Below, piece by piece: positions 1 to 6,102 of a DNA stretch of 64,000 nt. Origin of the DNA: Halobaculum gomorrense (GTDB lineage Archaea > Halobacteriota > Halobacteria > Halobacteriales > Haloferacaceae). Under the pieces are notes generated by a model that ran no database searches, had not been told where the DNA came from, and was given only the letters and a program-made list of their open reading frames with translations. Where the stretch lies: positions 207,780-271,779 of the forward strand of contig NZ_FQWV01000001.1 in the NCBI RefSeq assembly GCF_900129775.1. The letters are read 5' to 3'. The stretch's first letter is position 1. Every line of letters begins with the position of its first letter. Made by a program: the position numbers and the translations under genes.

Positions 1-2837
1 TTGTCGACCTCGGCGGGGTCGTAGTCGTCGGCCAAAGAGCGGAGCGCCATGGAGTAGACGTTCTCCACGAACGTCTCGCGGTCGAATTGGCGTGCGTCTT
101 GGGCGACGAGTCGTTGGATGCGGGTGATCCAGTCGTCGACCTCGGCGGGGTCGTAGTCGTCGGCCAAAGAGCGGAGCGCCATGGAGTAGACGTTCTCCAC
201 GAACGTCTCGCGGTCGAATTGGCGTGCGTCTTGGGCGACGAGTCGTTGGATGCGGGTGATCCAGTCGTCGACCTCGGCGGGGTCGTAGTCGTCGGCCAGA
301 TTAGCGAGCGCCATGGAGTAGACGTTCGCCACGAACTGTTCCTCGTCCGACTCGGTCCGTTGGACCCATACCGAGACGAGGTCGTCCACGTTCGGGTCGG
401 AGCCGTCCCTCTCGACGTGGTTCGAGAGGAGGCGTGCGGCGACGTTCCCCAGTATGGTCTCCGGGTCGTGACCTGTCCGTTCGACGTCCGCCGCGACGCC
501 CGAGGCGAGCGTCTCCGCGTCGATTCTGTCGGGTGGGACGGGAACCCCTGCAAAAAGCAGCGACCGGATCGACTCGAAATAGGTCTTGTCCTCGAACTCT
601 CCACGACCGAGTTTGTTCACGAACGCCTCCGACGTGTTGACGACTTCTGCGCGCAGGTCGGGCTTCTCTGATTCGACTGCGGCCCGAAAGACGGTCCCGG
701 TCCGCCCGGCCAGTCGCGGAAGCAGCGTCGCGGGCGCGTGTTCGGCGGCGGTGACGTATGTCCTAATCGGGTCCTGCGACTCGGTCGGTTTGTCGGGGTT
801 GAACACGAAATTCCGGAACAGTACGTCCGCGTAGAGGTCCGGGAGGACTGTCCACCGCTCTTTCCCCAGTGCGATGTCATCGTCCTCGATCGGGTCGTCC
901 TCCAAGACTGCCCGACCCTCGCCGCCGATGTACTGTACGATTTCGGTCGCGCTCGTCGGGTCGCCACACATCTCCCCGAGCTGGTCGGTGGTCAGGACGC
1001 CGAACGCGCTCAGTCTGCGCAGGACGCATCCCGCCGTCGTGTCGTCGTCCAGGTCGAGGCTGTTCTGCACGTCCTGCCAGACCAGTTCGTCGATCGTCTC
1101 GACGTCGGACAGTGGCGTCTCGCCCTCGGCGACAAGTCGTGCGGCGATCTTGGCGAACTCCGGGGTTCCCTCGGCCAGGCCGACGACGGCTTCGACGGCT
1201 TGTTCGAACGACTCCTCGTCCTCGGAAGCGACCCCGACCGTTCGGAGCGCCCGTTCCGCGATCCGCTCGATCTGTCCGCCGTCGTGCTCGAACCGCCCGA
1301 ACTCCACGTCGACTCTGTCAGACCAACTCAAGAGGTCCGATCGGGCCTGAAGCGGTTTCTTCGCCGTGTCTTTGAATTGCTTGTATCGCTCTGAGCGCAC
1401 CTCCACGACGACCGTCGAACACACCCCCTCCGCGAGGAACGCGTACAGGTCCTCGAACGCGTCCCTGTTCCAGACCGTATACTCGCCGTACTCGTACTGG
1501 AGGTAAACGATCGGTTGGCCGTCCGTCCGTCGGAGGGCGTCCTCGATGTACGGCGCGTCGCCCGATTTGAAATCCACCGCGCGGATCGGGTGCTTCGTCT
1601 CGTACTCGCGGAGCGCGTCGTACGCGGCCGTCGTCTTCCCCGTCCCGTCGGGGCCCTTGAGGACGACGAGATCCGAGTCGTCGAGCGCGTCTTTGATCGC
1701 CTCTCGCCTGTCGCCGCGGTCGTCCGACCGCGTCTCGTACTCGATTTCGCCGACCGGAACGTCGCGTCCGAGAAGGTTCGACTCCTCCCGTTCGACGGTG
1801 ACGGCGAGTTCGGAGAGGTCGACGACCGCACGGGACGTGCGTCGCTCGATCATCGCTTCGATATCGGACACCGTCTCGTCGAAGCGGTCGAGTTCCGTCT
1901 CGTACTCCTGAATGACTTCCTCGAACTGGTCGTCCGTGAGCAGGTCCGACTCGACCACGTCGGGGAGTTCGCCGCGCGAGAGGCTTCCGATCCGGTCGAG
2001 CGTCGACGGCGGAAGACGGAATGCCTGTTCGACCCGTTCCCTCTCGTGTGGGAGCGCGCGTCGCTCGAACAGTTTGCCGTACGCATCCGATGTCTTCCCG
2101 TCTTGCAACCGGAGATAGCTAAAGAAGCCGACCGCCGCCATCACGGGATCAGTTATCTGGACCGCGGTCCCGCTGAGAGCGCTCCTACCGACCCCTTTCA
2201 CCCCCTCCACGAACCCATCCAGACCGACGTCCGAGCCCACTGACCGTGCGGACTCGACCAACCCTCCGTCGTCCGATACACTCCCCGCCGCGTACTGAAC
2301 GACGTCCGGGAGGAGCGTCGCCTCGTACTCCCCGACAGCGTCTCTGAGTTCGTCGCTCACCGGATCGTGGCCCGTGTATTTGAACCGGGGCTCCTCGATG
2401 AAGTCGGACCGAACGTCGTCCCGCGAGCGTCTCCCGTCGACTTCGAGCGCCCGATTCACAGCGGCTTCGATGTCCTGTTCCGGGTCGTACCGGAGGTGAA
2501 GCGCCGAATCGAACCGTTCGAGGAAGTCGGGAGAGAGGTCGCCTTTCACCAGTAGCCAGTCGAGTCGCCACGGACGGGCGACAACCGCGATGGCGGTCTC
2601 GTCGGACTCCAGCGCGTCGAGAAACGCCTCTCTGTCGGACTCGGACGCGCGCTGCCATCCGTCGTAGAACTCGGTTACGACAGCGTTCTCGCCACCGGTC
2701 GGGAGTCCTTCACCCCCCCACGGGTCGGCGGAGAGTCCGCGCTCCACTTCGAGGCCGGGTGCGGCGATACAGAGGGCGTCAGTCTCGGTTTCCCACTCCT
2801 CGCCGAATTCCCTGGGCAGGATGCTGCTCCGGTCCAT
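1..2837 (-). CDS. STAND-type P-loop NTPase with C-terminal tandem repeats (3' end beyond window)
   Basis: Reading begins at ATG 2837, directly preceded in frame by TAA GAA, and stays open for 945 codons to the left edge. A region of about 390 residues of unknown fold, with a hydrophobic patch near residues 232-245, precedes a Walker A GPDGTGKTT (residues 395-403). A hydrophobic strand ending LQYEYGE (about 440), an arginine-bearing VVVEVRSER strand (about 480), a GTP motif within EGTPEFAKIAARL (557-559) and a helix-rich winged-helix-like stretch (VLRRLSAFGVLT) follow. This order is that of STAND ATPases (NB-ARC/NACHT relatives). The C-terminal part is built of about 44-residue helical repeats, two of them identical at DNA level. 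In known STAND proteins such repeats recognise ligands and ATP drives oligomerisation. A role in phage defence or signalling is inference; the effector is not recognised. Confidence 0.7.
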   Translation of the reverse strand, partial: MDRSSILPREFGEEWETETDALCIAAPGLEVERGLSADPWGGEGLPTGGENAVVTEFYDGWQRASESDREAFLDALESDETAIAVVARPWRLDWLLVKGDLSPDFLERFDSALHLRYDPEQDIEAAVNRALEVDGRRSRDDVRSDFIEEPRFKYTGHDPVSDELRDAVGEYEATLLPDVVQYAAGSVSDDGGLVESARSVGSDVGLDGFVEGVKGVGRSALSGTAVQITDPVMAAVGFFSYLRLQDGKTSDAYGKLFERRALPHERERVEQAFRLPPSTLDRIGSLSRGELPDVVESDLLTDDQFEEVIQEYETELDRFDETVSDIEAMIERRTSRAVVDLSELAVTVEREESNLLGRDVPVGEIEYETRSDDRGDRREAIKDALDDSDLVVLKGPDGTGKTTAAYDALREYETKHPIRAVDFKSGDAPYIEDALRRTDGQPIVYLQYEYGEYTVWNRDAFEDLYAFLAEGVCSTVVVEVRSERYKQFKDTAKKPLQARSDLLSWSDRVDVEFGRFEHDGGQIERIAERALRTVGVASEDEESFEQAVEAVVGLAEGTPEFAKIAARLVAEGETPLSDVETIDELVWQDVQNSLDLDDDTTAGCVLRRLSAFGVLTTDQLGEMCGDPTSATEIVQYIGGEGRAVLEDDPIEDDDIALGKERWTVLPDLYADVLFRNFVFNPDKPTESQDPIRTYVTAAEHAPATLLPRLAGRTGTVFRAAVESEKPDLRAEVVNTSEAFVNKLGRGEFEDKTYFESIRSLLFAGVPVPPDRIDAETLASGVAADVERTGHDPETILGNVAARLLSNHVERDGSDPNVDDLVSVWVQRTESDEEQFVANVYSMALANLADDYDPAEVDDWITRIQRLVAQDARQFDRETFVENVYSMALRSLADDYDPAEVDDWITRIQRLVAQDARQFDRETFVENVYSMALRSLADDYDPAEVD
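3..398. repeat. 132-bp in-frame tandem repeat inside the STAND gene
   Basis: Copies lie at 3-134, 135-266 and 267-398. The first two are identical over all 132 bases; the third matches for about its first 30 bases and then diverges. The period equals 44 codons, so copy-number change keeps the reading frame. The encoded unit contains YSMALRSLADDYDPAEVDDW and RIQRLVAQDARQFDRET. Perfect DNA identity, including third codon positions, shows a recent duplication or gene conversion. A more degenerate related unit can be seen upstream in the protein (DPNVDDLVSVWVQRTE). Confidence 0.95.
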
Positions 2838-2926: not shown

Positions 2927-3898
2927 TCACGCCGCGTCGACCGCCGCCACGAGTTCGCACTTGCGACAGATGTCGCGCGCGGTCTTTGACCCGCACCGCT
3001 CGCACGGCGACAGGTCCGGTCCGTCGCCGTCCTCTTCGCGGTACTCGTCGGCGAGCACGCCCGCCAGCTCCTCGTAGCCGGCCATGATCGAGTGACGGAC
3101 GCCCGGGTGGCGCTCCTCCATGTCGAGGAGGAGCTCCTGTATCTCTCCGCGGTACGCCTCGCTGGCGTGGGGGCACTCGGCCACGTGCGAGGGGAGGTCC
3201 CGGAGGTGGCAGTACAGCGCCACCTCCTTCTCGGGCACGTCCCGCAGCGGCTTCGCGCGCGGGACGAAGTGGTCGCTCTCGCGGCGCTCGGGGAACGGGC
3301 CGATGGAGGCGTCGAAGTGTTTGGCCATCTGCTCGGTGTTCCCCTCGAAGAAGTTCATCAGCGCCGTCTGCGCCTCGTCGTCGAGGTTGTGGCCGGTGAG
3401 GAGCTTGTCGGCGCCGAGCTCCTCGGCGTACGTCTCCAGCAGATCACGGCGGAACACGCCGCAGTAGGCGCAGGCGGCCATGTTCTCGGGGTCGTCTTCG
3501 ACCACGCTGTCCATGCGGACGCCCAACTCCTCCTCGTAACTCACCGTCTCGTGGCGCATGTCCAGGTCGGCGGTCAGCTCCTCGCAAGCGTTCAGCGAGG
3601 CGTCGCGGTAGCCGTCGATCCCCTCGTGGATCGAGAGCGCGACCAGCTCGATTCGGGGGTCCTCGGTGAACGTCTCGTCGAGCACCGTCGCGAGGACGAC
3701 GCTGTCTTTCCCGCCGGAGAGGCCGATAACCCAGCGCTCGGGGTCCTCGGGCGTCGCGTCGTCGGGGAGGAGGTCGTCCTCGCGGACGCGCCGGCGGACG
3801 CGCCGCTCGACCGACTCCCGGAAGTGCGACTCACACAGATGTGCCCCCGAGTAGGCGGCGTGCATCACCGCCTCTGCGCCGCACCTGTCGCAGTCCAT
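2927..3898 (-). CDS. ncsA: tRNA 2-thiolation enzyme NcsA/TtuA family
   Basis: 323 residues. The protein starts with a zinc-ribbon CxxC (C3, C6), carries the PP-loop ATP pyrophosphatase motif SGGKDS at 61-66, a central C143-x2-C146 pair and a later cysteine in AECPH (the three expected iron-sulfur ligands of the TtuA/NcsA group), and ends with a second zinc finger, CERCG...CRKC. The family adenylates C2 of uridine 34 (or 54) of tRNA and transfers sulfur from a ubiquitin-like carrier. In haloarchaea that carrier is a SAMP activated by UbaA, which is encoded at 21813-22628. Expected to be cytosolic. It is transcribed in the same direction as the STAND gene, ending 89 bp before that start, with no sign of operon coupling. 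Confidence 0.9.
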   Translation of the reverse strand: MDCDRCGAEAVMHAAYSGAHLCESHFRESVERRVRRRVREDDLLPDDATPEDPERWVIGLSGGKDSVVLATVLDETFTEDPRIELVALSIHEGIDGYRDASLNACEELTADLDMRHETVSYEEELGVRMDSVVEDDPENMAACAYCGVFRRDLLETYAEELGADKLLTGHNLDDEAQTALMNFFEGNTEQMAKHFDASIGPFPERRESDHFVPRAKPLRDVPEKEVALYCHLRDLPSHVAECPHASEAYRGEIQELLLDMEERHPGVRHSIMAGYEELAGVLADEYREEDGDGPDLSPCERCGSKTARDICRKCELVAAVDAA

Positions 3899-3966: not shown

Positions 3967-6102
3967 TCACTTCGGGGGCGTGTCGCTCTCCCCGGGGACG
4001 CCGCGGCCCTGGAAGAAGTCGCCGCCCCACTGGCTGATCCAGATGTCCTGGTTCGAGGTGTACAGCCCCCAGGCGGTCGTGAACATGTCGTCGACGGTCG
4101 ACCACTCGCCGGCGGCGGTGTCGTACTCGACGGCGTCGTTGTAGACGGCCGCCTGGCCGAACTCGCCGCCGGCCTTCGGCGGGAGCGGCAGGGTGTACTC
4201 GGCGCTTCCGTCGCGGCTGGGGGGCCGTTCGGCCCGCTGGAGGCGCCCGCGGTTGAATGTCTGGTTGAAGAAGCGCGCGTACTGCGCCTTCACGTCGCGG
4301 CCGACGACCGCCTCCAGGGCGTTGATCCCGCCGGTGATGTCGCCGGCGTCACGGGAGGTGATCCGGTAGGTCGAATCGCCCGTCCCGCTGGCGTACGTGC
4401 CGGCCTCCTCGTCCCACAGGTCCTCGACGAGGTACGTGAGCACGTCCTCGGCGAGTCCCGCGTGGTCGACGCCGTCGATCTGTGAGGCCCACAGCAGTCC
4501 CTGTCCGACGGCGCCCTGTGTCGCCGCTTGGTTGCTCGCGCCGCCGCCGACGCGCCCGCCGGACTCGACGTTCGCGTCGACCTCTGCAGCCAGCGCGTTC
4601 GCGTACTCCGCCGCCCGCGACCGGAGGGAGTCGGAGCCGGCGTGCGTACCGTACCAGCCGATCGCCCCGAGCATCTGCCCGAGGTCGCGCGTCGACCCCG
4701 CGGAGACGACGTCCGACGGGGAGAACAGGGTCATCGTCGTCTTCGCCATCCCGTCGGTCAGCATGCCGATCTTCTTCGCCGGGATGAGCGGCTCGGGGTT
4801 GACGTAGCCGAACCATCCGTTCTCGGCGAGGCTGCGGAGGTCGGCGAGGAACCACAGCATCGCGGAGTGGTGGTTCGGTCGCGCCGTCGCGTCGACGACC
4901 GTCCCCTTGCCGGGGGCGAACCCCGAGACCAGTTCCATGGAGTCTCCCTTGGTCAACGCGCCGTTCCCCTCCGGACCGCCGGCCACGAGCGTCGCCTTGA
5001 TCCCGATCTGCGCGAGCGTGGTGAGCATCTGCGCGCGGAACTTCGCGGCGAGGCTCTTCGGCAGGACGTCGAAGTGCGCCTGGAAGTTCTTCGCCCACGT
5101 GACGCCCTTGAGGTGGGTCCACGCGACCGACGACGGCGACACCACCTTCGAGGAGGCGCTCATGTCCCACGCGAGCGTGGAGGCGTCGGGCCGGCCGTCG
5201 CCGGCGTCGAACACCGGCTTCTGGGTGAAGTGGGGGTCGCCCTTCGTGAACGGCGCCATGTTCAGGTTGGGGTTCACCACGGGCGGCTTGCTCACGTCGG
5301 CGTGCTTCAACATCGCCGGGACGCGCTTGTCGAACGCCTTCTGCTGCTGTTCGTTGTGCGGGAACAGGACCCCGTTGCCCGACAGGGAGATGTTGGTGCT
5401 CATGTTGTACAGCGAGTACCAGTAGGAGTCCCACGTCGCCGCCTGCCAGCCGTACGCGTTCGCCGACCCCCCGCCGCCGGCGCCCTTGACGCCGGCGAGT
5501 TCGAGCAGCCGCGTGAGGTGTTCGGCCGGCGTCCCGCCGACCTCCGAGGGCGCGGTCGTCCCGGGGCCGCCCCGGGGGCCGTCGACGATCACGAGGCCGA
5601 CCATCCCGAACGACTGGTGGGGCGTGCAGTAGTAGTTGTACACGCCCGGCGTCTCGAAGGTGTGTTCGAACGTCTGCCCGGAGGAGAGCACCCCCGAGTC
5701 GAACGCGCTGGCCGCCTCGGGGATCCGGAGGGGGGCGCCGTTGTCGGGGTGGTACGCGGTAACCGAGTGGCTCCCCTGCTCGACGGTCCAGGTGACGGTC
5801 GTCCCCGACTCGACCCACACGACCGCCGGCGAGAATACGAACTGCCCGGCACCCTGGTCGGACTCCAGCGTCAGGGCGCTCACGGACGCGCTCGACCGGA
5901 GGCTCTCGGGCCCGCCGAGCATGTCGGCACCCGGCGGCGCCGACGCGGGAGTGGCCGTCGACGCCGACGCCTCGGTCGCCGTCGGTTCGTCGGCTCCGGC
6001 CGCCGTCGGCGTGTCCTCGGTGTCACTCGGGGCCGAACAGCCCGCGAGGCCGCCGACGAGTGATGCGCCGCCCAGTTTCAGGAACCGTCGTCTGTTTCCC
6101 AT
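3967..6102 (-). CDS. Exported halocyanin-domain protein fused to a large unrecognised C-terminal domain
   Basis: 711 residues. The N-terminus has an RRR-FLK Tat-like motif and lipobox LAGC (C22), so it should be exported and lipid-anchored on the cell surface. A Thr/Ala/Pro/Glu-rich linker (25-75) leads to a blue-copper halocyanin domain (about 85-176) with ligands H112, C159, H162 and M167 visible in SHS and YCTPHQSFGMVG. Residues about 185-711 form a second domain I do not recognise. It is rich in Trp, Tyr, Asn and Gly, and its alternating helical segments suggest an alpha/alpha barrel or quinoprotein-like enzyme, but I cannot tell which. Typical halocyanins are only 130-200 residues, so this is a fusion. 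The copper site suggests electron transfer to or from whatever the large domain does; that is inference. Confidence 0.75.
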   Translation of the reverse strand: MGNRRRFLKLGGASLVGGLAGCSAPSDTEDTPTAAGADEPTATEASASTATPASAPPGADMLGGPESLRSSASVSALTLESDQGAGQFVFSPAVVWVESGTTVTWTVEQGSHSVTAYHPDNGAPLRIPEAASAFDSGVLSSGQTFEHTFETPGVYNYYCTPHQSFGMVGLVIVDGPRGGPGTTAPSEVGGTPAEHLTRLLELAGVKGAGGGGSANAYGWQAATWDSYWYSLYNMSTNISLSGNGVLFPHNEQQQKAFDKRVPAMLKHADVSKPPVVNPNLNMAPFTKGDPHFTQKPVFDAGDGRPDASTLAWDMSASSKVVSPSSVAWTHLKGVTWAKNFQAHFDVLPKSLAAKFRAQMLTTLAQIGIKATLVAGGPEGNGALTKGDSMELVSGFAPGKGTVVDATARPNHHSAMLWFLADLRSLAENGWFGYVNPEPLIPAKKIGMLTDGMAKTTMTLFSPSDVVSAGSTRDLGQMLGAIGWYGTHAGSDSLRSRAAEYANALAAEVDANVESGGRVGGGASNQAATQGAVGQGLLWASQIDGVDHAGLAEDVLTYLVEDLWDEEAGTYASGTGDSTYRITSRDAGDITGGINALEAVVGRDVKAQYARFFNQTFNRGRLQRAERPPSRDGSAEYTLPLPPKAGGEFGQAAVYNDAVEYDTAAGEWSTVDDMFTTAWGLYTSNQDIWISQWGGDFFQGRGVPGESDTPPK

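Follow-up and report, generated by a model that had tools for sequence, protein, structure and literature searches.

At the left edge of the window, as we call the whole 64,000-nucleotide stretch of Halobaculum gomorrense contig NZ_FQWV01000001.1 under analysis, lies a minus-strand gene which probably specifies a haloarchaeal NLR-like receptor of the STAND type (signal transduction ATPase with numerous domains). Its C-terminal repeat units are homogenised and would be kept distinct at their presumed contact sites, and its ligand is predicted to be viral or otherwise foreign. What is new is that, in an archaeal STAND family of the NLR-like receptor kind, the differences between the units of a gene are concentrated at three fixed sites of helix A. 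The domain order, the STAND match of close relatives, the insertion of the gene, the homogenisation of its units, the three-site concentration and the conservation of the sites between two species are direct results of the analysis. No archaeal case of such a repeat pattern was found in the literature searched, the coverage of which was partial and included few subscription papers. Designations beginning with G, C and L are ours for genomes, contigs and loci.

Repeat units and their variable sites

The open end of the frame at the window edge is an assembly gap and not a biological terminus: 161 Ns (G000:C5) lie directly to the left of the window, inside the repeat array. Extension of the contig leftward, which a sequence-only reading of the window had advised, recovers the same array past the gap, resuming with NVYSMALKKLADDYDPAEVDDWITRIQRLVAQDARQFDRETFVENVYSMALKK... 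and comprising two further units in which KK stands where the window units have RS. Beyond the gap the frame continues for 284 residues until a stop codon at L005:9764, and about 200 residues (197) follow these two units before the protein ends. Because the KK units fall outside the window, past its edge, that reading had not described the variable sites as such. The repeat unit is 132 bp long. Positions 3–134 and 135–266 are 100% identical over 132 bp, as had been noted before, and unit A0, compared with the adjacent unit in the protein-unit register, has 7 mismatches in 132 bases. By the phase of the units on both sides the unseen stretch comprises about 72 + 132n bases, and the assembly allows for about 170; one hidden unit (n = 1), giving six in total, fits best, the gap length being the assembler's estimate and an in-frame join being presumed. 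At least five units are visible in the array of the window gene, and their exact number and order are provisional.

Neighbouring units are close to identical as proteins in the window gene (41/44 and, for the part seen, 23/23), in G153b (48/50, 47/50, 43/50) and, without the degenerate last unit, in G161a (39/46, 42/46) and G153a (48/51, 44/51). Identity is lower in G161b (37/48, 40/48, 39/46), Halorussus (44/52, 42/52) and G159 (34/46), so that four of the seven arrays have about 85% unit identity throughout. The repeat turnover suspected from the window alone is borne out in that the units are homogenised within genes and number three in G159 and four in G161a.

With site 0 placed at the F/L of the motif [FL][LV]xNVY[SA]MA[LI]XX, we compared 29 units having a complete helix A. 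The entropies of sites 2, 10 and 11 are 2.06, 2.00 and 2.17 bits; sites 15 and 16 vary as well (2.55 and 1.65 bits), there mainly between genes, and the other twelve of sites 0–16 do not exceed 1.12 bits. Read along the array, the pair at sites 10–11 is AN, RS, RS, then across the gap KK, KK in the window gene; SN, SN, KR, SN, KR in G153b; KK, NN, KK, KK in G153a (contig C54); and KN, RQ, RQ, KN in G161a. Between window units A1 (RS) and B0 (KK), compared over 96 bases, all six bases of sites 10–11 differ and none of the 90 others, while units 0 and 1 of G153a differ at 6 of 153 bases, every one of which lies in codons 1 (silently), 2, 10 or 11.

Over seven arrays, with 35 sites examined in each, 49 amino-acid sites vary within an array and 19 of them are sites 2, 10 or 11. 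Sites 2 and 11 vary in all seven arrays and site 10 in five; every other site varies in three at most. The count excludes the diverged array of G462 and, in G161a, G159, Halorussus and G153a, the degenerate unit that closes the array; codons beyond site 34 and a portion of window unit B1 are also excluded, as are the lone G153a unit found on C16 and the incomplete one with which C54 ends. A concentration as high as the observed one did not arise in any of 50,000 shuffles, and this held when the top three sites were chosen anew in each shuffle, a statistic which was added on account of the sites having been spotted before testing. Under another selection (pairs at least 88% identical, which gave six arrays with no G159 pair and with G161b lacking a variable site) the three sites account for 13 of 28. 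All three lie inside predicted helix A. Judged by predicted helices and a helical wheel, site 10 points away from the hydrophobic face, with sites 2 and 11 at the borders of that face.

Going by the unit sequences, homogenisation is separate in each gene: units 0–2 of G161a are 92–94% identical in DNA among themselves and 58–68% identical to the units of G159. These two genes come from two species of one genus, and their proteins are 58% identical before the array and 60% after it. In unit 0 (G, KN) and unit 1 (E, RQ) their residues are identical at every one of the three sites, six of six, and at sites 10–11 all four codons differ, each of them silently. Amino-acid changes affect 14 and 13 of the 35 codons of these two units, mostly at sites 17–30 behind helix A. 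Unit bodies are thus alike and the three sites divergent within a gene, while between G159 and G161a it is the three sites that match and the body that diverges in large part; this comparison comprises one gene pair and two units. The conserved states argue that the state of the sites matters at each position.

Domain order of the receptor

The positions of the domains and motifs are collected in Table 1. Throughout the family the units are helical hairpins of 44–52 aa for which Pfam offers no repeat family, tetratricopeptide repeats (TPR) included; weak matches of single members (TarS_linker, DNA_ligase_aden and others) look like chance. The sensor of the G161a relative was modelled as an alpha-alpha solenoid consisting of helices throughout, with a mean predicted local distance difference test score (pLDDT) of 62.5 and 10-residue means of about 53–82 over the array. 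Its matches among known structures are designed repeats, HEAT/ARM and similar solenoids (best Z 11.8, root-mean-square deviation 5.5, 229 residues), and these may reflect only the common arrangement of helical repeats.

The STAND NTPase proposed from the sequence is supported by homology. The full-length relative in G159, 40% identical, scores 28.3 bits with nSTAND3 against a cut-off of 27.2, and among nine members eight match nSTAND3, eight AAA_16 and seven nSTAND5, mostly below cut-off. The translation confirms the open frame of 945 codons together with the motifs read from it, that is, the Walker A motif, the arginine-bearing strand (R481 in VVVEVRSERY) and the GTP motif. Across the nine aligned members G395, G398, G400, K401 and G557 are invariant and R481 and P559 vary; a clear acidic Walker B was not seen in them.

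As to the N-terminal ~390 residues, which had been described as unlike any known effector, Pfam indeed recognizes no known effector domain in them, but they are not featureless, for they contain a decayed P-loop-like domain, a hydrophobic segment and a helical linker. In the relatives, aligned in 15 rows, the first of these displays the motifs GAPxxGKS/T ... hhhDDFY ... TRPRxLDWLL; the window protein has APGLEVERG at the Walker A position and no GK[ST]. The GK[ST] is intact in 8 of the 15 rows and is missing, besides the window protein, in G159, G161a, G161b, G153b, L026 and G337. In the Halorussus member the match to AAA_22 is strongest at residues 26–96 (whole protein E 4.9e-5, 24.1 versus a cut-off of 27 bits). 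A Pfam scan of the 15 isolated domains returned only weak single-member matches, and a PDB sequence search with the profile only weak matches of the Ras-type P-loop (best E 0.02). Homology of this domain to the STAND NTPase of the same proteins was considered and is unsupported (hhalign probability 1.6). The same N-terminal domain occurs in L026 (G161:C129, 2–3394, minus strand) in combination with an nSTAND5 NTPase (39.0 versus 34 bits) and TPRs, which looks like a module swap and suggests that the domain is movable. The TPR units of L026 are themselves near-identical, a second repeat type with high internal identity, and the contig ends inside their array.

The 19-residue stretch of highest hydrophobicity falls between the N-terminal domain and the linker in 12 of 15 proteins, the exceptions being the window protein, G159 and G337. 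The segment is weak in the window protein (best 19-residue Kyte-Doolittle mean 1.17, from residue 221) and stronger in most relatives. For the linker, the Halorubrum vacuolatum relative has a sub-threshold match to the coiled-coil model DUF7310.

Table 1. Features of the receptor gene and its right-hand border, in window positions
Feature	Position	Strand	Basis or remark
STAND-like receptor gene, N-terminal 945 codons, continuing through the assembly gap	3..2837	-	Open reading frame
Repeat unit A2, residues 923-945, truncated by gap, variable sites E / RS	3..71	-	
Codons of sites 10-11, unit A2 (Arg-Ser)	36..41	-	
Repeat unit A1, residues 879-922, variable sites E / RS	72..203	-	
Codons of sites 10-11, unit A1 (Arg-Ser)	168..173	-	
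Repeat unit A0, residues 835-878, variable sites A / AN	204..335	-	
Codons of sites 10-11, unit A0 (Ala-Asn)	300..305	-	
Non-repeated part of alpha-solenoid, residues ~690-834	336..770	-	Predicted helices, 10-residue pLDDT means 45-83
STAND NTPase domain, residues ~366-595	1053..1742	-	
GTP, GxP-type motif, residues 557-559	1161..1169	-	
Walker A GPDGTGKTT, residues 395-403	1629..1655	-	
Helical linker, residues ~305-350, coiled-coil-like in relatives	1788..1925	-	
Hydrophobic Ala/Gly segment, residues ~224-244, possible membrane insert	2106..2168	-	
N-terminal P-loop-like domain, residues ~20-180, Walker A decayed, FY and RPWRLDWLL motifs kept	2298..2780	-	15-row alignment
ncsA (tRNA 2-thiolation), right border of insertion	2927..3898	-	NF047749, 623 bits, above cut-off

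Insertion between ftsZ and ncsA, and relatives

On its left the gene is bordered by ftsZ (TIGR00065, 398.5 bits, above cut-off) and on its right by ncsA. In each of the 10 congeneric genomes searched, the best matches of these two genes lie side by side in convergent orientation, at spacings of 122, 128, 138, 150, 171, 200, 204, 204, 205 and 228 bp as against 4,125 bp here, and receptor matches were found in none of the 10. The insertion between core genes that had been deduced from the window is thereby borne out. Similarity to the congeners ends close to the end of ftsZ on the left and close to that of ncsA on the right; the short intergenic region itself is not conserved across them. The GC content at third codon positions (GC3) is 0.82 in the receptor gene and 0.94 and 0.93 in the flanking genes. 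Beyond ncsA, window positions 3967–6102 (minus strand) encode a 711-aa protein having an RR signal-like start, a lipobox-like cysteine and a plastocyanin/azurin domain (PF00127) at residues 82–173; about 530 of its residues have no Pfam match at E 0.001.

Of 170 genomes of the family 6 contain a receptor match, and of 391 in the class 26 do, the own genome included in both; in 16 of the 26 the match covers only about 80–110 residues around the P-loop. Alignments of at least 690 residues were obtained, beside the own genome, with G161 and G159 (both about 40% identical), G153 (two genes), G317 and G365. Further members are a plasmid gene of Halorussus aquaticus, annotated as “MSCRAMM family adhesin SdrC” (NZ_CP100402.1), and a gene of G462 with a diverged array. 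The family is rare and scattered among haloarchaea. A search of the phylum with the N-terminal profile gave at least 7 of 392 genomes (8 candidates being scored per genome, which is no census), and of two scans of genome contigs the first confirmed nothing and the second gave two loci. There is also a sister family of about 1,430–1,500 aa in haloarchaea (e.g., Haloferax mediterranei WP_004061051.1), with the N-terminal motifs in common and weak repeats. Of this family (L092–L104, e.g., L095:3025–7320 and L055:9749–13972) some members have an intact N-terminal P-loop, GAPSVGKS; the family also displays an odd second P-loop, GPKASGKRR, and its weak repeats are of the Y type.

The neighbour proteins of the relatives (Halorussus, G364, G365, G462, G159 and G153b) were picked by eye, and we therefore claim no enrichment. 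In Halorussus a type I-B cas operon starts about 6 kb behind the receptor gene, and the periodic region between the two resembles a CRISPR array in appearance. In G364 (C45) four small genes follow the receptor gene, one of them Csm3-like and one Cmr3-like by PADLOC (L105:5323–7932, where the contig stops); they are possibly a type III-like or unclassified CRISPR effector set. G365 has a REase-like protein about 3 kb upstream (PADLOC 2.1e-7) and a weak ZorA match downstream (9.5e-4). No defence match was obtained with the one neighbour scanned in G159 and the three scanned beside G153b. A protein with a PAAR motif lies directly upstream of the receptor gene in G462 (L118:11186–12025).

In the circular plasmid record NZ_CP100402.1 the first 8.8 kb (L119:1–8839) are 99.9% identical to a stretch near its end (L054:13167–22000), probably an untrimmed overlap. 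A second Halorussus array was dropped since it sits in this duplicate of the stretch around the gene.

Proposed mechanism, alternatives and significance

We propose that at rest the NTPase would be kept closed through contacts with the C-terminal alpha-alpha solenoid, as expected from STAND proteins generally. The ligand, most likely a viral or other foreign macromolecule, would contact the solenoid via helix A of each unit, where the presumed contact sites 2, 10 and 11, exposed or bordering the exposed face, differ from unit to unit. Binding would open the ATPase, the protein would oligomerise, and the N-terminal half (pseudo-P-loop domain, hydrophobic segment and helical linker) would act on the cell, perhaps at the membrane. 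Recombination would meanwhile copy units, the bodies staying near-identical, and selection would keep the contact sites distinct. A defence role is plausible. The rarity of the family, the insertion and the lower GC3 count in favour of this reading, as does the presence of CRISPR-cas genes (type I-B; Csm3-like and Cmr3-like) near two of the relatives.

Several observations weigh against it. The window protein itself scores 18.7 bits with nSTAND3, below the cut-off of 27.2. The AlphaFold model of its 945 residues, made with only two relatives, has a mean pLDDT of 47 and is mostly below 50 over residues 1–700, including residues 576–701 after the NTPase, where a winged helix was sought, so that neither the winged helix nor the NTPase fold was seen directly. 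A PADLOC scan (2023 library) of nine members gave 20 weak families, with no Avs model among these and no usable family. Neither gene next to the window copy is a defence gene, and four scans of viral contigs confirmed no receptor copy. The shuffle, in which the 35 sites are treated alike and the arrays share ancestry, shows a shared location of differences and not selection as such; and the arrays of G161b, G159 and Halorussus vary at many other sites too. Finally, the residues kept by G159 and G161a at the three sites of units 0 and 1 argue against a fast arms-race change of specificity in that pair, and so against the rapid ligand-driven turnover anticipated by the sequence-only reading. These conserved states lower the standing of the receptor explanation, and also of the notion that the sites are free of constraint; they raise that of a fixed ligand and of a recognition code.

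A fixed ligand is the first alternative. The protein would be a STAND regulator of the MalT/PH0952 type, sensing an unvarying metabolite or host protein, and the differences between units would be fixed parts of one surface. As in MalT and in PH0952, an archaeal STAND protein with a TPR sensor that was solved as a MalT homologue (PMC6468293), the NTPase is followed by a helical solenoid sensor. The equal site states of units 0 and 1 in two species would be expected of such a regulator, and the location of the window copy beside ftsZ and ncsA suits it as well. However, the units are not TPR by Pfam, which recognizes no DNA-binding or enzymatic output domain in the window protein; the presence of the gene is erratic, as an insertion that 0 of 10 congeners have; and the homogenisation of units is left unexplained. 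We consider this rather unlikely.

Sites 10–11 (with site 2) might also constitute a modular recognition code, each unit reading one element of an extended ligand such as a peptide, a filament or a nucleic acid. In such an archaeal immune receptor the unit bodies would be homogenised, and the code residues would be kept position by position between species and reset only by whole-unit shuffling or the exchange of short blocks surrounding their codons. This reading is unlikely; were it true, a TALE-like programmable logic would be coupled to a STAND switch.

According to another alternative, selection on sites 2, 10 and 11 need not be invoked: they would simply be the surface residues of helix A under the weakest constraint, the remainder of the unit being homogenised by gene conversion. 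The units are few and the three sites are hydrophilic on average, both of which suit it. Of 21 synonymous-only changes, 10 lie no more than two codons from a hot site (shuffle p 0.024), a weak hint that short blocks rather than single bases are exchanged there, which fits such exchange as well as it does selection. On the other side, the retention of residues at sites 10–11 through four silent codon changes between G159 and G161a indicates constraint, and site 6, which also faces the exposed side of the helical wheel, is invariant inside every array. The RS and KK units of the window gene, with their six of six against none of 90 bases, also speak against it. Variable codons with nonsynonymous versus synonymous-only differences number 13:0 at the hot sites and 15:12 elsewhere (Fisher p 0.0035, five arrays), a contrast that likewise speaks against this alternative but is partly circular in that the sites were picked for amino-acid variation. 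Altogether we hold relaxed constraint to be quite improbable.

That identical units were copied, merged or misjoined by the assembler is very improbable, and the array pattern is probably not an artefact, for although a gap breaks the array here, contigs end inside arrays in G153 and G161, and short-read assemblies of such repeats are unreliable in fungi (PMC12222747), the same pattern is present in arrays lying wholly inside longer contigs (G159 C1, 3.0 Mb; G153 C43, 90 kb) and in the Halorussus plasmid record called complete, and the units to the left of the gap are of another type than those to its right.

For the receptor reading the closest known systems are the fungal HNWD and HIC NLRs (Podospora HET-D and HET-E; NACHT-WD40, TPR and ANK types), which likewise have a STAND switch, near-identical C-terminal repeats with few variable positions, and trouble with assembly in the repeats. 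Two papers (PMC4986451, PMC12222747) describe Podospora NLR repeats with an internal identity over 80–85%, concerted evolution and few positions under diversifying selection; each WD40 repeat has four variable positions, and the TPRs of one gene have three, on concave helices. Of the features of the HIC type, the archaeal arrays resemble it in internal identity (for which the HIC threshold is over 85% protein identity across at least 100 aa, and which reaches about 85% throughout in four of the seven arrays) and in having few fixed variable positions. Unlike the HNWD proteins, the present family is archaeal, has units that are 44–52 aa helical hairpins without a Pfam repeat match, has a P-loop-like N-terminus and hydrophobic segment in place of HET, and conserves its site states between two species.

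Near-identical repeats of about 34 aa with an adjacent pair of variable residues (the repeat-variable diresidue) are the hallmark of TAL effectors. The archaeal arrays resemble them in both respects, but here the units have 44–52 aa, the pair lies inside helix A together with a third site, and the array is joined to a STAND ATPase. In the Avs antiphage STAND proteins the C-terminal repeats sense and the N-terminus is proposed to act. The receptor may share this sensor/effector layout in its C-terminal repeats and N-terminal half, though, unlike Avs, it has no known effector domain at the N-terminus by Pfam. Like the putative sensors of multicellular bacteria that are diversified by diversity-generating retroelements (PMC10907252), it would be a diversified sensor of a conflict system. 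In its own genome, however, no reverse transcriptase domain was found (PF00078, 0 of 1, with 3 of 14 control genomes positive), which speaks against such a retroelement.

The N-terminal pseudo-P-loop module, being common to a different STAND-TPR protein, is a candidate for an undescribed effector module. The arrays offer a prokaryotic setting for the open question of how identical repeats gain and keep multi-base differences at fixed codons. With the pattern present in Archaea on an unrelated helical repeat, this receptor design would have arisen more than once or be older than thought.

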